Shown here: positions 50,107 through 64,000 of the stretch, piece after piece
How positions within the stretch are numbered: position 1 is the first letter of the stretch
How the letters are laid out: the number at the start of each line of letters is the position of its first letter
From: Aureobasidium sp. EXF-3400
Lineage: Eukaryota; Ascomycota; Dothideomycetes; Dothideales; Saccotheciaceae
Reading direction: 5' to 3'
Assembly: GCA_024195585.1 (NCBI GenBank)
Contig: SWBL01000008.1
Coordinates: 1-64,000 of the forward strand
Length of the DNA stretch: 64,000 nucleotides
The notes under the pieces: model-generated
The model's input: only the letters and a program-made list of their open reading frames with translations
What the model was told of the DNA's origin: nothing
The model's database searches: none
Made by a program: the position numbers and the translations under genes

Positions 50107-51064
50107 CTATACTGGATCCTGACCAAAGATGATATGCCAAAGATGCTCGAAAACACGACCGCTTGTGTCATCATCAAGTGGTGTCTCGTACAGCCACTTC
50201 AAAGCACCAACATAAAACTCTAGGGGTCGCCGGCGAACTTGATCTCGCGAAACGGCGAATTGTGCACAGCATGCAGCACCAATTACCTTTGGCACGTCGC
50301 TGTTGCCGAATAGCTCTTTCCACACGTCTGCGATTGCGTGTTCTGCTCTTCGGTCCTCTGCATCATGATAATCGTGGAAAGGTCGAACCCCGTCCGGACA
50401 GCCAGGATTGGCGGTGCAGCGGAGATTGGCATAGCCATTACTTTGAACGAAGTCAATATTGAGAGAGGACAAGCTGTTGACATTCGAATGACCGTCTGCA
50501 TCTGTATGCCGTGCATTTTCGTGAGCATGCACAAAGGCAACGGTCGATGGGAGCTTTGCGTAATTTTCCACAATGTACGTAAGATAGACATTGGCCTCTC
50601 GTCCCTTGTTTCTCGACGTATGCAAAGGCCAAGTGTCATTGTCGACCGAGTACACGGCGTTCTGCCATCTGATGTTTGCGTCAGCTTCTGTCACAAGAGA
50701 ATCCAAATCGAATAACTGACAACGGAAGCTTCTCGACCCAGGATGTATCCTCGCTGTTGGTTGTACCCATCACAACAATCTGGTCCAGAGCATTTGAGCT
50801 GCTTGCTGTTGTAGCCTCAATAGGCGAGGTTTTCCCCTGTGTAGTGGCAGTCTCTTCAAAACGCCCTTCATTCGGTGTAACTGTTGGAGCCAGTTCTACA
50901 GACTGGCTGATTTCCGTTGACGCATCATCTCCGACATCGACGAACGACCTCAAATTGGAGCCATGGAAAGCTTCCGCAATTGGCAAGCGATATAGATATG
51001 TTCTGATCAAGAGGAAGCCTGCTAGAATCAAGATGGCAGGAACAAATCGAATAGCTGCTTTCAT
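50107..51064 (-). CDS. DUF3431 family type II membrane protein
   Basis: Exons (minus) 51064-50721 and 50668-50107 give 301 aa. The intron starts GTCAGT and ends ATCAG. An N-terminal membrane helix (FVPAILILAGFLLIRTYLY) follows a very short cytoplasmic end, then a Ser/Thr/Glu-rich stem. The DUF3431 core follows: VVMGTTNSEDTSWVEKLP, then WQNAVYSVDN, NKGREANVYLTYIVENY, VAFVHAHENARHTDA, DFVQSNGYANLRC and a conserved Cys-Gly-Pro segment. Widespread in filamentous fungi near secondary-metabolism and wall genes; its topology suits a Golgi glycosyltransferase-like enzyme, but activity is unproven. Confidence 0.85.
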
Positions 51065-52255: not shown

Positions 52256-53333
52256 TTACCATTTCGCATGCGTCTTGCTGTCGTGGCTTGTGCGTCTCCC
52301 TAAGCTTCCAGTTCCACGCGTGGAACTCTCTAGGCTAGGACCATTGTGGTCGCTGCTGGGAAGGGCTTTCGGCTGACCTTTGTTCAATACAGCACTTTGC
52401 ATCCGAACCGCCTGCATTGTTGATACAATGATTGGCGTCTGCTGGTTCATTGCAGATTGAGAGAGAATGCGATCGAGGATCTCGGTAGAGAACATGCCGA
52501 TTGCTTGACTCGCGCGATTTACAGCTCGATTGTCTGAAGCGGACACTTTGCCATTGACTTTTAGTTTGTCGCCGCCAATGATCTGGCAAGAGTTGTCGGC
52601 CATGTTGTTATCCAGACGAAGATCGATGACAGGGTGGCTGTCAGCTGTTGCTTGCGCGGCTTTACAAGCAGCAATACTTGCTTCAAGCAATTTTCTATCA
52701 TTCTCCATTGTCTGACGGACAGAACCTTGAAGATCGGATAGACTCTCCATCACGAGTGCAAGCTTCTCTTTGAGGTCCATCTCATTCTCCTTGGCGATGT
52801 TTTTCAGTTCTTCCAAGGCATCTTTCGTTGCAGGATTCTCCTTGCTGTCTCAAGTCAACAACCCTGTTTGAGATCTAGCGCCAAGAAGAAGTTTGAGTTT
52901 GCACTTACAGGGCAACGATCTGTAGGGCAATCTCCAAAGTTGTCTTGTAGTCTGCAAGCCTCTCGCCGAGCTCCTTGACTGTTCTGCCATTGTACTGCAT
53001 CCGCAACCAATCCCGCAAGCTGGATTTGCCCTCTTTCGTGTGCGGATTCCATGATATCAATGATTCCTTCAATTCTCTACAGCACTCACCACAGCTGTAG
53101 AGTGGAGCTTTCAAGACAGCATATCGACTCTCGTGCGTAGCACTCCCGTCGTGAACTTCTTGCTGCAATGGCTTTATCACATCGATGAGCACCTCAACCT
53201 CTGTCTGCAAATGCTCTACGTCTTTGTTGTGCGATTTTATGCTTCTGAGTGTCTGGTAAAAGGAAATTGAAGCTTGAAAGCCGAAAGTAACAAGAGCGAG
53301 AATTCCGGACGCGATTCCAATGGGCTCTGCCAT
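52256..53333 (-). CDS. Helo-like (fungal STAND N-terminal domain) cell-death effector candidate
   Basis: Exons (minus) 53333-52909 and 52844-52256 give 337 aa. Residues 1-140 are a Helo-like N-terminal domain: MAEPIGIASGILALVTFGFQ then SISFYQTLRSIKSH and an all-helical body, related to HeLo/HELL membrane-targeting cell-death domains. A coiled-coil-like helix follows, then at about 220-233 DNNMADNSCQIIGG and a second weaker block with NRASQAIG, then a Ser-rich tail. The same kind of motif opens the divergent NACHT-WD40 protein next door. Helo-like effector plus short motif is the design of fungal amyloid-triggered death effectors such as HET-S or HELLP. Most such domains open an NLR; here the domain stands alone. 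Effector role is inferred. Confidence 0.75.
52562..52618 (-). other. C-terminal amyloid-like motif of the Helo-like effector
   Basis: Codes the DNNMADNSCQIIGG segment (about residues 220-233), placed after the Helo-like and helical parts as in HET-s-type effectors. CQIIGG looks like the core (hydrophobic-Gln-hydrophobic-Gly) of RHIM-type motifs. Confidence 0.55.
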
Positions 53334-53652
53334 GGTCGTGAAAGATGATAAATGTGGAAAGATTGACGGCGGAAACTACTCGAGTACTGATACATCACAG
53401 AGAAAAGGAATCAGCCCCTTGAACACCTTGTGACCGACGTGCATGAGGCTGAATCCTTCGAAGTTCGCACCAATGAGACGTTCAAGATATCCGCTCACCA
53501 GTGCTTATCAGGGCACTGCACATAAGACACGTAAGCCCACACTACTCGTATGACTTGTTTCGTCGCTTTGGTGAGCTGCTCAAGATTTGAAGTCATCAAT
53601 GCCCAGAATTTGATTACGTACAATTTGTCGACAAAAGGCCCAGAAACTTATA
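53334..53652. promoter_or_regulatory. shared divergent promoter, Helo-like effector / NACHT-WD40 receptor
   Basis: The 319 bp between the two ATGs (53333 minus, 53653 plus). The short shared spacer fits co-expression of an effector and its receptor. No operator motif recognised. Confidence 0.5.
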
Positions 53653-56600
53653 ATGACGCTGAGTTTCAAAGCAGACAGCAACATCGCCAAAGACAACGCA
53701 ACTCAGATCATTAACGCGACCTATAATCATTCAGCGCAGACATCCATTGGCACCTGCTTGCGAAAATCAGATTGGCTGAATCCAGATTTTATCAAGACTG
53801 ACATCACCGCCATCGATGGGATATTGGACGAATCGATTGAGTGGATTTTCCGCGATGATTGTTTTAAGCGATGGAATGGAGAACAACAAACGACACTGCT
53901 GTGGATCGTTGGCGGTGCGGGCAAAGGGAAGTCAACCATGACTGCTGGCATAGTCAATGAATTGAAGAAGCCATCGCCAATCTCAGCAACTTCCAACACG
54001 CGACCGACGGTCGGATACTTTTTCTGTCGCAGTTCGCGAGACAACGCCAACACTGCCGTCGATATATTGAAAGGGTTGATCTATTCTCTCATGAATAATT
54101 CCGCACAGCTGGGTCAATATTTGTATCGTCATTGGAACGAACATGAGCAATCGTTCGATTCGAGTGTTGACCGGCTCGTATCCCTCTGGCAAATCTTGAG
54201 GAACATGCTCAACCATCCCGACCAATCGCCCACATATACAATCATAGATGGCCTGGATGAATGCGACGGGACTATTGATGAGCTCCTGCACCTCATTGGT
54301 ACCGACGGCCTGACTATGTCTCGCCCTGTCAAATGGTTATTGAGCAGTCGTCCCCTGGAGCCTCATTTGCAGCACTTTTCTTTCAAAGGTCCTCGTCAGT
54401 ACCAAATTGTGCTTGACGAACATTCAAGCGAGATGAAAGATGCTATCAGAAGATATGTAGCCGTCAAAGTCAAACAGACTGCTTTGTTCGATTACAATGA
54501 GGTTGAATTGGGAGAGATACAAAGCCTTCTGGTCAACAAGGCGGAAGAAAGCTTCCTCTGGGTGTCTTTGGTTTGTCGTGAGATCACAAATTTGCCTGCT
54601 AAGAAAGCTGTCAACATTATCTCGACGGTACCCAAAAGACTTTTTGCTCTGTATGATCGCGGCATGCAGAAAATCCGTGACGGTTGTCAGAAAGGCGAAG
54701 AACAATCACTGCGCTGTTGGAAGCTTATCTGGACGCGGTATTCCCTTCACAATGATCCGCACATCGTCGAGCTTTCCAAGCTCGCAGGTCTTTACGATGA
54801 TAAGAACCATGGAGAGTCTTACCTCAGAGGACTTGTCAACGCCTGCAACGGCTTTTTGCTTCTTACTGACAACAAAACCGTACGCCTGGTCCACACATCC
54901 GCCAAAGATTACCTTGATCACAGTTGTACACAGTCGTCCTTCCTCTCGATTGGAATCCCAAACCATCAGCTCATAACAGAAAGATGCTTAGGCGTTCTAT
55001 ATCGGAAGCTCTGTAAAAACATCTCTCAATTGGACTGGGTGAACTTTGCTGCGGCAGATGTTAAAGCAGCAGTAAAAGAGGATGTCAGGTCACGAATCGG
55101 GTACTCTTGTACGCACTGGGCCAAACACCTCAGAATCGCTGGGATATCGCCGACGCTGTCGAAGGTACTGCAGCATTTCCTATCGACACATTTTCTGCAT
55201 TGGATTGAGGCACTGTGTGTCCTGGATAGACTCTTTGATTGTATGCTCGATCTAGAGACAATCATCTCCCTCCTCAAGGTCAGCATGAATTCCATATTGT
55301 TGATTGAGGCTTACCCGGATAAAATAGTCTTCGGAACGGCTAGAGCTTCTGAAATTCGTTATTGAGGCCCGAACTTTTGTTCAACTAAATGGTTCGCGAC
55401 TAGCAAGATGGCCTCTACAGATATACTCATCTTTGTTGGTGTTTTCTCCACAACAGGATTTTGTGGCAGGGTATCTTGCTGCTCAGAGACCTCCGTGGGT
55501 CACGCGTTGTTTCAAACACAATATGCCTTCGATCTTACCATTATGGACTATCGAGACTGACGCTGAGAGGATCTTCAACATGGTCTATTCTCCAAGTGGA
55601 CGTATCATAGTCACTCAATCAGCCAACGCACTAAGACTCTGGCGTCCAGAAGAGTCTAGTGAATTCGTTGTTCTGCTGGGTGAGACTGAATGGCTTCGCA
55701 AGAGTTCCACAGAACATTGGAGATTTTTGGAAGACGAAACGAAGACAGAAGCCACTCTGTTCGATGAACATGATTCTTCACTGTACTGGACCGCCACATG
55801 GGATACTGTCACTGGCGACTTGCTTGATAAGAAGACAGAACATAGACATCGGCGCCGGCGAGACCACAGGCAGGAATACTCTGAGGACCTCCAGTTGGTA
55901 GCAAGCTGCGATTCACGTGGTTCTGAAATGCTTCTGGAAGACATGGCAGGGAAAATCACTCCAATGAGATTTCCCGCAGAACCTGCACAAATGCGCGCGT
56001 GGCTTACCTTTTCACCAAACAACCAATACTTGGCCGCTTGCTACGATGGATCGATGCACATATGGTCGACAACAGGTCGGCGACACTTAGCAACTATCAA
56101 CGTCGGGTCTCGGGAAGATTGGGATCTGCCATTGTTCTCTTACTTCCTGAAATTCTCTAGCGACAGTAAGCGGCTGATTACTTTTGTGTACAACACCTTG
56201 GGGATGTTTATCTGGAAGCACGATGTCTCCAAGGTTCTTTCCCTCGACGGATCCATTTTCGATTACACTTCGAACGAGTCGACCTTCCCTTTTCCTGAAA
56301 CCGGTTGCATGCTAGCTGTGCATCCAAGTGAGACTGACACTCGGACCTGCGTCTTCAGAGGCACAATCCTTTCTCCAGACGGTGCATATGTTGCTGGAAT
56401 CATAGGAAATGGTATATTTATTGCCGAGACAGAAACAGGCATTGTCATTAGAAGGATCCTGGGTCGTTTCGAAGCTATAGCTTTCAAGCCTGAACCCCTT
56501 CGACTTGCATCGTCGGACTCACTTGGAACCATCCAGGTTTGGGCCGTGCACACTGATGGACACCATCCTCTGAGTCAAATTGCTGAGCTTAACACATTGC

Positions 56601-57793
56601 CCATGCTCACCTCAATCGAGAAGAAAGCCTTCTCAATGAGTCATATGGAATCTGGCTCGCTAGGCTGGATTAATCCGGATACCAAATATGAATTCATAGT
56701 ACCATCACCTGATAGCCGATTCGTCTGCTTGAACTCATATAGATGGGGAATCCATCTCCTAGACAGACTATCCGACGAGTCTTTCGTAATTCGGTCGTCA
56801 CCGATCGACATTGGCGACCGCGAATGCATATTCTCTCCGGATAGTCAGTGGTTCGCAACAAGCAGCAAGGGTAACGAAGATGAGACTTCAAGAATACAAG
56901 TATGGAGCACTTCGATTGCAAGGCCTTCCAGATCCACCTTACACACCAATGTATCCTGGAAACACCGACATGTATTCTCAGGCGTGAGAGGTTCAACAGT
57001 GCAGGCAATGTCTTTCTCAAGAGACTCAAGTCTATTGTATTGTTCGTATGCGACTACAACAGGCCTGTTTCCGCGAATTTGGATGGACGTCTTGAACCTA
57101 CAGAACGAGCAATTACGCACAATCAAAGGACCTCTATGTACTCACGAATACAGTCATGATAGAGGGGTAGCATGTGTGTCTTCTGATAACAGTCTTGTGG
57201 CCAGCACCCTCGGACAGAAAGCAGGAATGGTAAATGTGGTGATACTGCGGGACTCAGGGTCGAGACCATGCGTCTTGTCGACTGAGCCTTCTCCACTTGC
57301 CGTCAAAGCAATGCTCTTCTCGCCTTCTGGTGATTTGCTTGCAGTTCATCGGGAAGAAGGCAAACTGGAGGTTTACTCCACCTCTAGTCTGACCAATGGA
57401 CTTCTTTCGAACGTGGGAGCAAAGCGTACGAACCCAGTTGCACAGTTCGATGGCCTGAAGACTCTTGCTCATCTTGAGTTCACGCACGACGGCCAGCAGA
57501 TTCGAACAAATTGTGGCACCATCCACATCAAAGATCATCACATCTCGCGGTCGCCAGACTCATTCTTGCAAAGGCTTTCCCTCGATGAACAATGGATCTT
57601 CCTTGGCGGACAAAAGATTCTATGGCTGCCGCCGGAATATAGACCTCAAAAGAAGACTCACAAGGGAAGAAACAGCCGAACCTACTTCATCAGCAATTGG
57701 ATTTGGTTCCTTGATTCAACAGACTGTATCACTGCGATAGAATTTGATCTGAATCTTGTAAAGGAGCTCATACGAGAGGAGAGATTCGTCTGA
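53653..57793 (+). CDS. NACHT-WD40 NLR receptor with N-terminal amyloid-like motif
   Basis: Exons 53653-55278 and 55328-57793 give 1363 aa. A 49-nt intron (GTCAGC donor, AAATAG acceptor, phase 0) joins what otherwise look like two genes. There is no effector domain at the N-terminus. Residues 8-22 read DSNIAKDNATQIINA, then the NACHT domain with Walker A GGAGKGKST (87-95) and Walker B YTIIDGLDEC (195-204), an SSRP sensor segment, a winged-helix-like region, and a C-terminal WD40 region (weakly conserved repeats such as IFNMVYSPSGRIIV, LTFSPNNQYLAACYDGSMHIW). This is the NWD2-type layout: WD40 senses, NACHT oligomerises, and the N-terminal motif seeds folding of the effector motif. Activation is inferred from the family. 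Confidence 0.88.
53674..53727 (+). other. N-terminal amyloid-like motif of the receptor
   Basis: Codes DSNIAKDNATQIINATYN (residues 8-25), rich in Asn, Gln, Ile and Ala. With one gap it aligns to DNNMADNSCQIIGG of the neighbour (about 8 identities in 14). Rapid divergence outside the core fits a functional shared motif rather than gene duplication. Confidence 0.6.
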
Positions 57794-59895: not shown

Positions 59896-62800
59896 CTATT
59901 GAATTACTCGAGAACATTCTGGATTGTACGGATCACAAGGAGGTCTAGGTGATGTGTTTAGTCTGAGCGAGGGCCGGCCGTGTGGTATGTATACGCTGGA
60001 TGTAGGGCGTCCGACTGCTTTCAACAAGGATGTCACAACTTCCTCGTGACCGCCTTCAGCCGCAGCATTCAAGGCACCCTTCGCGAAACCATCTGCAAAC
60101 ACCTTAGCCCCGTTGTCCAGTAGTAAGGCTACCACGTTGATATGACCGTGGTAAGCAGCAGCTTGTAATGCATTGCCATAGATGCCGCTTTTTGCGTTGA
60201 CTTTTGCTCCGTGATCCAAGAGAAGGCGAACCAGTGAAAGATGACCTTTCATTGCAGCAGCTTGCAAAGCATCTCCGATTTTGCCGCCAAAGTTCACATC
60301 TGCGTTGCTGGCTATCAAGAGTTGAGCAATGTGTTGATGATTCATGAGACATGCCACTCGGAGTGGCGTGCCAAGGGGTCCCTCCGCTTCGATGCTCAAG
60401 CCCTCGTCCAAGAGGAATACAAGCATCTTCTCTCGACCATACAGAGCCGCAGTACTGACTGCATCGGCTGGTAATGACAACGAAAGATCGGCAGGGTTCT
60501 TGACGCTACGTCGTAGCAGCTCTATGTCACCGCCGCCAATAACCTTGTTGATACCAGTATGTGGGGTTTTCTGTGCGAATGATGCGATCAGAGTTGAATT
60601 TTGAAGTTTTCCGTGAACTCGACGGAGCCCATGTTGAGAAGCTCCCAGGACCGCTGCGTCGTAGATCGTCTGATCTAATTGGATGTGGGGGTGTATTAGG
60701 ATATCAAGTACTACATTCTCCTGGTTGCCGTGGAAAGCAGCTTCCAATGCGGTCAAGATTGTTTTACCAGACGGCGCGGAAACTCCGTTCTCCAATAGTA
60801 AATGGACAGACGTCAAGTTACCAGCGAAGCAGGCAGCTGCAACTGGGTTGCCTCGCTTCGGACATTCGAGATTCACATCCGCCCCATGGTAAAGTAATTT
60901 CCGGATTATTGCATCGTGTCCCATTGCGGCTGCAAGGTATAGACCCGTCTGGCTGAGCGAATTCCTTCTATCCCAGTCAATCCGGCCTGGGCTGTTCATT
61001 TCGTAGTCATCAAGAATGTCATCCAAACCAAACACACATGCTGCGAAAAACGGTGTAAAGTCGAGATGGTCAGAACCATGAACAGCATTTAGCGATACAG
61101 ACTGGGAATGATCTCTTTCAAGAGTCGCAGAGATTTTCTTGATTGTCTCGAGCCAATTGATGAAAGACCGGCTTACTTCGCCGTCGTCGTCATAGATGAA
61201 TTTCTTCAGGTCGGTGAACAAATTCGATGCTCGTCGTTGCTGGCCAGCAAACTTGGAATGATAAGGCCAATAGATCATGCTGTATCGATCTAGGGATCCA
61301 GAACTCGGGAGCCGATCGGTAGATTGGTTTAAGCAGCTCTCGATGCACCGCATTGAGATAGCACGATGCACATTTGCTTCTTCAAATATTGGGTGCTTGC
61401 GAGCAAATTCTTGGACTGACTGGTGCGAAAAGCGAAACATCCCGGAACTGTTGTCGAGGACAACCAAGTTCGAGCAGATGTCAACGATATCCGAGTTCAA
61501 GCTACACTTCACTGCTGAGGCGAATGCATCCGTTGTGAGTGGCTCTTGAGCATATAATAGCCATGAAATTGTATCAATTGCTACTTTACGTGCTGCAGAA
61601 CCACTGTTCAGTAGCTTGTCCATGATCTTTGTGTAGATCTGATCAAGATTGTCGAAGCGTTTGTGTTGTATCAAGTCGATTATGTCTTCTTCCACTGGAA
61701 GCTGCCGGAAAAGGTCAAATTGACATTTTGCCCATTGGAACCTGTCAAACATCAACTCCTGGGTATTCAATCCATGACCAATAGCTGACTTACATTTCTC
61801 CTGCCTCCTTGAGTAATATTTGAATGAGACTTTCTTCCAAGACTGGATCTTGCAACGTGAGTAGCTTCCCTTGACCCATTGCTCCGGTCATCAGCTGACG
61901 GATGAAGTGCTCCATATCTTTGTGGGTTTGTTGGCTCTGAACACATATTCGAGAAGCCGTCGACAAAGTCCTAAACGTCCTAGTGTCGTTACGAGTGGTG
62001 AGAAAAACCTTGACCAAGTTCTGTGCGTTTGCCATAATTCGTTTCAGAACACCAAGTAGCTTGTAGCGGTCGTCGTCCGGAATTTCGTCAAGTGCGTCCA
62101 CGACTATGGTGACTGGATTGTCCAAGATGATCTCCATAATCAATCTTTCGCAATCCTCAGTGCGTGGTCGGATCAAGTCAATGCCATCTACTTTACATTT
62201 CGCTTGCAGACGATCATACTCGGATGAAAGCACATGGCGGACTTCTGCTCGCGGTCTTCCAGATGTTGTAAGTTGACGCACAATGCTTCGTAGAATTTCT
62301 TCTGACCGCCCGCGTTCTTTCTCGGCCTCGTAGTTTGCACAATAGAAGTACGCAAATGGTTCCGTGACCAAATCATTCTGGCGTTCGGTAAGATGCTGTT
62401 GGACTACAAGGGATGACAGAACCGATTTTCCACAGCCAGGAATTCCATGGAGCAGAATGGTGGAAGAAGAGCTGGTCGATTTCCATCTCTTGTACTCAGG
62501 ATGATCGAGAAGCCACTGGCCGGTACCTACTAAGTGTCTTTCAAGCCGATCTTGATGGGCTGCATGAAAGTCGATCGAAGATATCCATGTAACCAAATTT
62601 TTGTGCTGGTGATCGAATTCGAGAGTCCTGAGCCTTTTCGAGAGGTCTTCCACTATCTTTTGGACATTGAGGAGTGTTTCGGAGTCGGTAAGATCGACGA
62701 GCTTCAGCAGATCGGTTTCGATAGCCAAAATTCTCTTCTTTTTCTGACTCTCCACGTCCTGGAATACACTGGTAATCAACCGAACTGTGGATAGTAAGCA

Positions 62801-63383
62801 TATTATTCTAGCTTCATTCTATGATGACTGGCTTACCTGGAGTACTCTTGTCAAAGTACTTGATGGAGTATGCCAGAAAAGCTAGGATCTCCGCGTAGAG
62901 TTGAATCAAGGTGCCTGCAACCTGACCAGCGAGTGAAGCAGGTCCCAAAGGCATGTAGAAGTTCTCAAAAGCTTCGTAACAGGAAACAAGGCGTGTGACG
63001 AGCTCCACATTCTCTACCATGGCGCAGAATTCCTCAGATTCGTTGCAGACCAGCTGCAACAAGAATCGTACACCTGCCCATGGCAACGAGGCGTGTGCTG
63101 GATCATACTGTACGGCAATATCTCCGACCTCCTTAAATTCATGAATCCACTTGACGACTTTTTGGGCAACGTCGCGAACGAATATGGTATCACCATTAGA
63201 CCTCTTGATCTTCCACCGCTTGTTGAGGCACAGTTCGTGCTTTTCTTCCGCAGCTTTGAGTGCGGCCGCCACAATGTCACGTGTGTGGGTCATAGAAGAG
63301 TCGAGGATGCCTTTGATGTTAGGTTCAAGTGAGTCATAAGCGAGCTTCCAGTAGTCTGGCTTCGATGGAATCGGTGAAGCCAT
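59896..63383 (-). CDS. DUF7708-NACHT-ankyrin NLR receptor
   Basis: Exons (minus) 63383-62837, 62784-61794, 61741-59896 give 1127 aa. Introns have GTAAGC and GTAAGT donors, and the joins read continuous NLR sequence (GEMFQWAKCQF). Residues 1-180 are a DUF7708-type N-terminal domain (SLPWAGVRFLLQLV). NACHT has Walker A GIPGCGKS (297-304) and Walker B TIVVDALDEI (near 409-418). A winged-helix region follows (MFRFSHQSVQEFARK). The C-terminal 400 residues are ankyrin repeats (GLYLAAAMGHDAIIRKLLYHGADVN, ALQAAAYHGHINVVALLLDNGA and others, some degenerate). NLRs of this type sense non-self and trigger a death response. Intact, so likely functional; ligand unknown. Confidence 0.9.
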
Positions 63384-64000
63384 AGCTGCGTACGGCGATA
63401 ATGACTAACGATGTGGACGGGTGTGTTGGGATGCTTGTGTAGTTCCGCAATTCTAAAAAGTGCCTGGATTCAATCGCAGTGGAGTAGCTGCCCATTCATA
63501 TGCCAGAAATCAGCAGCGTCAGACAAGCCTGCAGCCATGCGATGTAGATGCATGTGCTTCTACAATGGCTAATCACACAGCCACTCAAGCTGTGCGTTGA
63601 GTACTTACAATGCATAGCAAGGCTGAGTACTTGAGCTCCGCCTCCATTGCATGATCCTTGTTAGACATCACTGCACCTGTTCGTATTGGACAGAGTGAAC
63701 CCCTCAACTGAAGGCGGTATGCAGCCGCAGACAGCACGGCGCGCCAGCCTCGCAGATAATTGAGCTGTCCCGGGATTAGCGACGATTAGCATGTTCTTTG
63801 AAGATATCTGCTGGCTCATGATGCCCGCTCTGTTTGTAACATTGAGTGTACAGAAGGAGCGCAGTTGATTGGCAGTTATTCAAATGTTGTTGACGTCGCA
63901 AGATTCTGCTCGAGCTAAATTAATGCAAATTTTGTTCACTCTTGTCAGATTATGCAGCATTTCATAACTTTGGTTGGAGCCTTGACCTTCGCGTCCGACT
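63384..64000. other. upstream region of the NACHT-ANK gene
   Basis: The 617 bp to the window edge. Presumed promoter. Nothing recognised. Confidence 0.4.

Follow-up and report, generated by a model that had tools for sequence, protein, structure and literature searches.

Two genes transcribed divergently on contig C8 (SWBL01000008.1) of Aureobasidium sp. EXF-3400, one encoding a HeLo-like effector and the other a NACHT-WD40 receptor, raise the question of whether a short motif found in both products makes them an amyloid signaling pair and, if so, whether that motif belongs to a class that has yet to be named. An earlier note had suggested the first and raised the second as a possibility. As judged from sequence, the C8 pair quite probably carries out regulated cell death under NLR control and is of the HET-S/NWD2 (HELLF/FNT1) type, with a motif that is a divergent form of the HET-s-related amyloid motif (HRAM). 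The kind of system is known; the version of the motif is unusual. Among the papers listed by literature searches, none dealt with amyloid signaling in Aureobasidium, which is weak evidence of absence. Published statements are given here as they stand in the excerpts of the cited papers that were consulted.

The gene pair and its domains

In the window, which is the whole stretch of 64,000 nucleotides that was analyzed, the pair comprises the following features.

52256..53333, minus strand: effector gene, 337 aa, with one 64-bp intron (52908-52845), from open reading frames and a splice test
52691..53330, minus strand: HeLo-like domain (PF17111, PigL_N), effector residues 2-193, spanning the intron, from hmmscan
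52568..52624, minus strand: first effector repeat (r1), residues 216-234, HRAM positions 3-21, from the sequence and a profile of the related C100 pair
52490..52546, minus strand: second effector repeat (r2), residues 242-260, HRAM positions 3-21, from the sequence and the C100 profile
53334..53652, no strand: intergenic region common to both genes, 319 bp, between the divergent start codons
53653..57793, plus strand: receptor gene, NACHT-WD40, about 1357 aa, with one short intron, from open reading frames and domain matches
53665..53721, plus strand: receptor motif (r0), residues 5-23, HRAM positions 3-21, from the effector r1+r2 profile
53833..54360, plus strand: NPHP3_N/NACHT nucleotide-binding domain, residues 61-236 (NPHP3_N E 3.9e-32; NACHT E 8.1e-7, above cut-off)
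55346..57790, plus strand: WD40/beta-propeller region of the receptor (PF00400 E 2.2e-12, above cut-off)

The start codons, at 53333 (minus) for the effector and 53653 (plus) for the receptor, enclose the 319-bp shared promoter region that the earlier note had described, and the domain order that it gave is borne out, with the HeLo-like domain ahead of the effector motif and the nucleotide-binding domain behind the receptor motif. The receptor intron (55279-55345) is a choice among several candidates that keep the frame. The effector matches PF17111 with an E value of 3.8e-45 and 154 bits against a cut-off of 27, which places it among the HeLo-like proteins; PF17111, formerly named Helo_like_N, is taken here as the domain that the amyloid literature calls HeLo-like. 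In Pfam, the effector also has a sub-threshold SesA match and no match to PF11558, and NACHT_sigma is listed for neither protein at E values up to 5, short profiles being ones that such a search can miss. About 60 residues precede NPHP3_N in the receptor, which, with NACHT and WD40 domains behind an N-terminus of fewer than 150 residues, is a fungal NLR of the short-N-terminus kind. The best homologue of the effector is P0001 of Aureobasidium melanogenum (79% identical), and the best match of the effector paralogue, at 94%, comes from the same species.

In DNA searches for duplicates, the pair itself and its right flank matched themselves alone, and the left flank gave a 70% match on contig C22 and two short matches. 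The gene that adjoins the pair at 50107-50769 (minus) encodes a DUF3431 protein (E 7e-71) and lies in the region of the C22 match. A second NLR in the window, at 59896-63404 (minus), has NACHT_N (PF17100), NPHP3_N/NACHT and ankyrin repeats spread over three reading frames.

A doubled effector motif and its single receptor copy

The motif sites that the earlier note had named were found where it put them: DNNMADNSCQIIGG occupies effector residues 220-233 (52612-52571, minus strand) and DSNIAKDNATQIINA occupies receptor residues 8-22. The count of eight identities in 14 holds when one residue is gapped, whereas the ungapped register, which fits the other copies, gives 6/15. The effector also carries a second copy, r2, 26 residues from r1, and this copy rules out a single-copy motif of an unnamed kind. 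Two effector copies and one receptor copy are the layout of HRAM systems, and we numbered the motif after the HRAMs of PMC4518210, with G at position 19. In this numbering, positions 3-21 read DLRLDNNMADNSCQIIGGD in r1, VSASDNRAVNRASQAIGMF in r2 and FKADSNIAKDNATQIINAT in r0, the full 21-mer of r0 being receptor residues 3-23. N8, Q16 and I18 are common to all three copies. The nearest relative of the C8 pair, on contig C100 (receptor 39% identical over 252 residues), has the effector repeats FVLNNNTTSDNSRQFIGTD and FTATHNHAGPSSVQRLGMF and the receptor motif FNISNNVAHATSQQIITTY, and all six copies of the two pairs have N8, Q16 and I or L at 18.

Measured against the published HRAMs, the C8 copies agree in part. 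HRAMs have hydrophobic residues at positions 5, 8, 10, 16 and 18, with Q16 allowed in HRAM5 (PMC4518210), the family that has been called the most diverged of the HRAMs (PMC7885112, PMC7889193). Positions 10 (M/A) and 18 (I) of the C8 copies fit this description, position 5 is R/A/A, and N8 and Q16 are polar residues at positions that are hydrophobic in most HRAM cores; the consulted parts of the HRAM text (PMC4518210) do not mention N8. G19, published as invariant in HRAM effector repeats (PMC4518210), is present in r1 and r2 and is N in r0. The loop between the repeats has five residues in both the C8 and the C100 effector, outside the range of 6-18 residues given for 154 of 155 published cases, the remaining one having two (PMC4518210). 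Position 15, for which R or K is a preference and not a rule (PMC4518210), is C, S and T in the C8 copies and R in C100 r1 only. The departures from HRAM are thus N8, N19 in r0, the five-residue loop and the missing R/K at 15. We nevertheless call the motif a divergent HRAM-type motif and not a new class, because it agrees with HRAM in layout, in length, in where it sits in the receptor, in Q16 and, for the effector copies, in G19.

A predicted model of the homologue P0126 shows, at modest confidence, a pair of strands in each repeat with a spacing of 26 residues, and strand prediction failed for P0001. The helical part of the P0126 model resembles the MLKL bundle in structural matches; no HET-s entry was among the structural matches listed, which excludes nothing. 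Likewise, no entry for HET-s or HELLF came up in PDB sequence searches with the effector, the motif alignment, the C95 repeats and the P0003 repeats, an outcome that is not decisive.

Related pairs in the same genome

PF17111 has seven matches in this genome, five of them above the cut-off, and each of these five genes (C8, C100, C565, C7 and C95) faces a NACHT gene head to head, the C95 partner carrying NPHP3_N. For the two weak matches (C51 and C210), NACHT searches gave no match on either contig. The pairs on C7 (C7:85000-93000) and C95 (C95:104500-112500) are divergent, with two effector copies and one receptor copy, and their motif, which has Q3, hydrophobic residues at 5, 8, 10 and 18, and G19, fits the published description of HRAM2 (PMC4518210). 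The match between receptor and effector is strong in both (C7, p = 0.0023; C95, p = 0.0003, among 25 comparisons). An HRAM pattern scanned upstream of 32 NACHT locus entries found C7 and C95 only, a result not counted here because the pattern is by construction unable to see C8 or C100. In the fifth divergent pair, on C565 (C565:1500-9500), the effector repeats fit HRAM (r1-r2 p 0.005), and the N-terminal exon of the receptor, at about 6482-6370 (minus), which is unannotated and was read by eye, matches weakly (p 0.20).

How far the match exceeds chance

In the pair test, ungapped windows of 17 residues were scored against a background of 3000 shuffled receptor N-termini. The best window between C8 r0 and its own effector scores 22 (p = 0.15), no better than the shuffles, so that the shared motif of the earlier note, although its sites are correct, is a candidate for coincidence when that match is taken alone. 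Within effectors, the resemblance of r1 to r2 has p values of 0.18 for C8, 0.16 for C100, 0.017 for C7, 0.002 for C95 and 0.005 for C565.

Only when the second repeat is added does the C8 match become more convincing, since a profile of r1 and r2, the register and borders of which were picked by eye ahead of scoring so that its ranks are not blind, places r0 first of 1339 receptor positions and the own receptor first of 31 NACHT loci (12.5 against 8.7 for the next). These loci, drawn from 48 NACHT matches plus later additions, were ranked over three frames of their upstream regions. The three C8 motifs, used as a profile, find C100 r1 and r2 as first and second of 305 positions and C100 r0 as first of 1351; the converse search, with the three C100 motifs, puts C8 r2 first and r1 second of 319. 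The C100 receptor motif is first of 1351 for the C100 effector profile and second of 1351, behind an overlapping window, for that of the C8 effector. A profile of nine HRAM2-like motifs ranks C8 r2 first of 319, r1 tenth of 319 and r0 eighth of 1339.

When effectors alone are ranked against the 31 loci, the own receptor comes first for two of the five (C8 and C95) and second for C7 and C100, and that of C565 falls outside the top seven. The C100 receptor is outranked by a window on C63, 1222 nt upstream of the NACHT there, and the C7 receptor by C95. The C8 receptor fits the C100 effector (score 31, p = 0.015) above its own effector, which places specificity at the level of the motif class; co-variation specific to each pair, the check that the earlier note had proposed, was not found between C8 and C100 (31 against 22).

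Conservation among homologues

Effectors of the C8/C100 type number 11 in the set compared: two from this genome, seven from Aureobasidium (P0001, P0002 and P0126-P0130), and P0131 and P0132. Both repeats, with N8, Q16 and I or L at 18, are present in 10 of the 11. The exception, P0002 (Aureobasidium melanogenum KCU98_g1485), keeps r1 and has a GTPase-like stretch in place of r2. Both P0002 and C210 (C210:9500-15500) show PF17111 followed by a GTPase-like domain of the AIG1/MMR_HSR1 type, in weak Pfam matches, and the join in P0002 is possibly a gene-model fusion or a HeLo-like/GTPase architecture. A pair of repeats with Q16 also occurs in P0003 (Lophium) and P0005 (Monosporascus), two more remote PF17111 proteins, in which position 8 is V, as is position 19 in r1.

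Between the C8-type and C100-type effectors, identity is 0.38 in each of r1 and r2, 0.38 in the HeLo-like exon, 0.34 in the linker helix and 0.22 in the tail. The effector motif is therefore not specially conserved, since its identity equals that of the HeLo-like exon. The tail after r2 (52256-52489) has 77 residues and is present in homologues, poorly conserved. On the receptor side, the best 120 of 181 homologues include no close Aureobasidium orthologue, and none of these 120 has the strict N8/Q16 pattern in its first 120 residues; the top-scoring N-terminus among them, that of P0014 (Penicillium), reaches 11.4 and has N at position 18.

Comparison with known amyloid signaling systems

The C8 pair resembles HELLF/FNT1 (Podospora anserina, HRAM5) in having a HeLo-like effector with two repeats, an adjacent NLR with one, and the Q16 by which HRAM5 is recognized in the literature; it differs in the N8 at the core and in the 77-residue tail after the motif, HRAM5 being compared here by its description only. 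Like HET-S/NWD2 (Podospora anserina, HRAM1), it consists of divergent genes with a NACHT-WD40 receptor, two effector copies, and a receptor motif at residues 3-23, which is where NWD2 has its motif (PMC3321046). Unlike HET-S, the C8 effector is HeLo-like and not HeLo, lacking PF11558, and N8 and Q16 replace hydrophobic core residues. It shares with the HRAM2-like pairs of C7 and C95 the head-to-head order of a PF17111 effector gene and a NACHT receptor gene as well as two repeats plus one, whereas those pairs have Q3, a hydrophobic residue at 8 and A, V or G at 16. With the PP/RHIM systems (HELLP/PNT1), it has in common a HeLo-like executioner and a conserved Q, but its core spacing is different, and the PP motif is a single-copy pseudo-palindrome (PMC5485727, PMC7885112).

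Proposed mechanism and rival readings

The mechanism is modeled on NWD2/HET-S and FNT1/HELLF (PMC7885112, PMC7889193, PMC5485727), and beyond the identification of domains and motif we infer its steps by analogy. The WD40 region would sense a ligand, and the NACHT domain, to judge from its family, would then oligomerize. The r0 motifs clustered in this way could form a beta-solenoid-like amyloid seed, which would template the effector repeats r1 and r2, located C-terminal to the HeLo-like bundle. As in HET-S and MLKL, the released helical bundle might then insert into membranes and cause cell death. The prion-like NLR/HeLo-like pair of the earlier note is thus retained as the best explanation, amended in that the motif is double in the effector and neither RHIM- nor PP-like. 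The note had described a Gln-Ile-Ile-Gly core as RHIM-like; the copies read SCQIIG, ASQAIG and ATQIIN, and a Q-x-I-G core is not G-V-Q-V-G, its Q-to-G spacing being off by one residue. A conserved Q beside hydrophobic residues and G is what speaks for a PP/RHIM-type motif. In the C8 copies, however, the residue ahead of Q is C, S or T, and two residues lie between Q and the G or N, which departs from the published G-(I,V)-Q-(I,V)-G core (PMC7885112), and the effector of a published PP system has one motif (PMC4518210) where that of C8 has two. We rejected this reading on core spacing, and hardly any probability attaches to it.

The motif match could also be a coincidence, the pair signaling by direct contact or the effector acting alone. 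The p values of 0.15 for the pair and 0.18 for r1 against r2 leave room for this, as does the choice of register and borders by eye before scoring, but the first rank of r0 among 1339 positions and 31 loci, the recurrence of the arrangement in C100, a diverged pair, and the strong C7 and C95 matches, which show the signaling mode in use in this genome, make coincidence distinctly improbable. It is likewise unlikely, if less readily dismissed, that the motif forms a separate amyloid-signaling class outside HRAM, with the same layout and mechanism and its own N/Q-centered fold. N8 and Q16 recur in every one of the six copies from the two diverged pairs, the HRAM2-like profile is poor at finding r0 and r1, and r0 is without G19, all of which would suit such a class; against it, the doubled effector motif, single receptor motif, length, register and Q16 match the description of HRAM5, the repeats of P0003 and P0005, with Q16 and V8, bridge to ordinary HRAM, and C100 r1 and the receptor motif of C7 align without a shift in register (p 0.004). 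One speculative form of this idea, to which we give a low probability, is a lineage-specific amyloid class in which N8 and Q16 at the core of r0, r1 and r2 would build N/Q ladders, a seeding code that insulates the C8 and C100 pathways from the HRAM2-like pairs of the same cell. If true, polar ladders and not hydrophobic packing would set the specificity of an immune amyloid. We favor the divergent HRAM-type reading, and the motif class is not clearly unnamed, as layout, length, register and Q16 point to the HRAM superfamily, with HRAM5 the nearest by description.

Survey windows and motif classes in one genome

The C8 motif may already be among the motifs of the 2015 and 2022 surveys, as far as their consulted parts go (PMC4518210, PMC9815663). 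The 2015 survey covered the C-terminal 80 residues of proteins no longer than 310 aa (PMC4518210), and the 2022 survey the last 100 residues of NLR neighbors (PMC9815663). In the 337-residue C8 effector, r1 starts 122 residues from the C-terminus, and such motif variants may be under-counted because they fall outside these windows. This one genome has at least two motif classes on one effector family, each with partnered receptors, and since two partnered classes coexist in it, it is a good natural set for cross-talk avoidance in amyloid signaling. The assembly is 53.4 Mb and contains near-duplicate NACHT matches (e.g., on C287 and C288), which may indicate a hybrid or diploid assembly.
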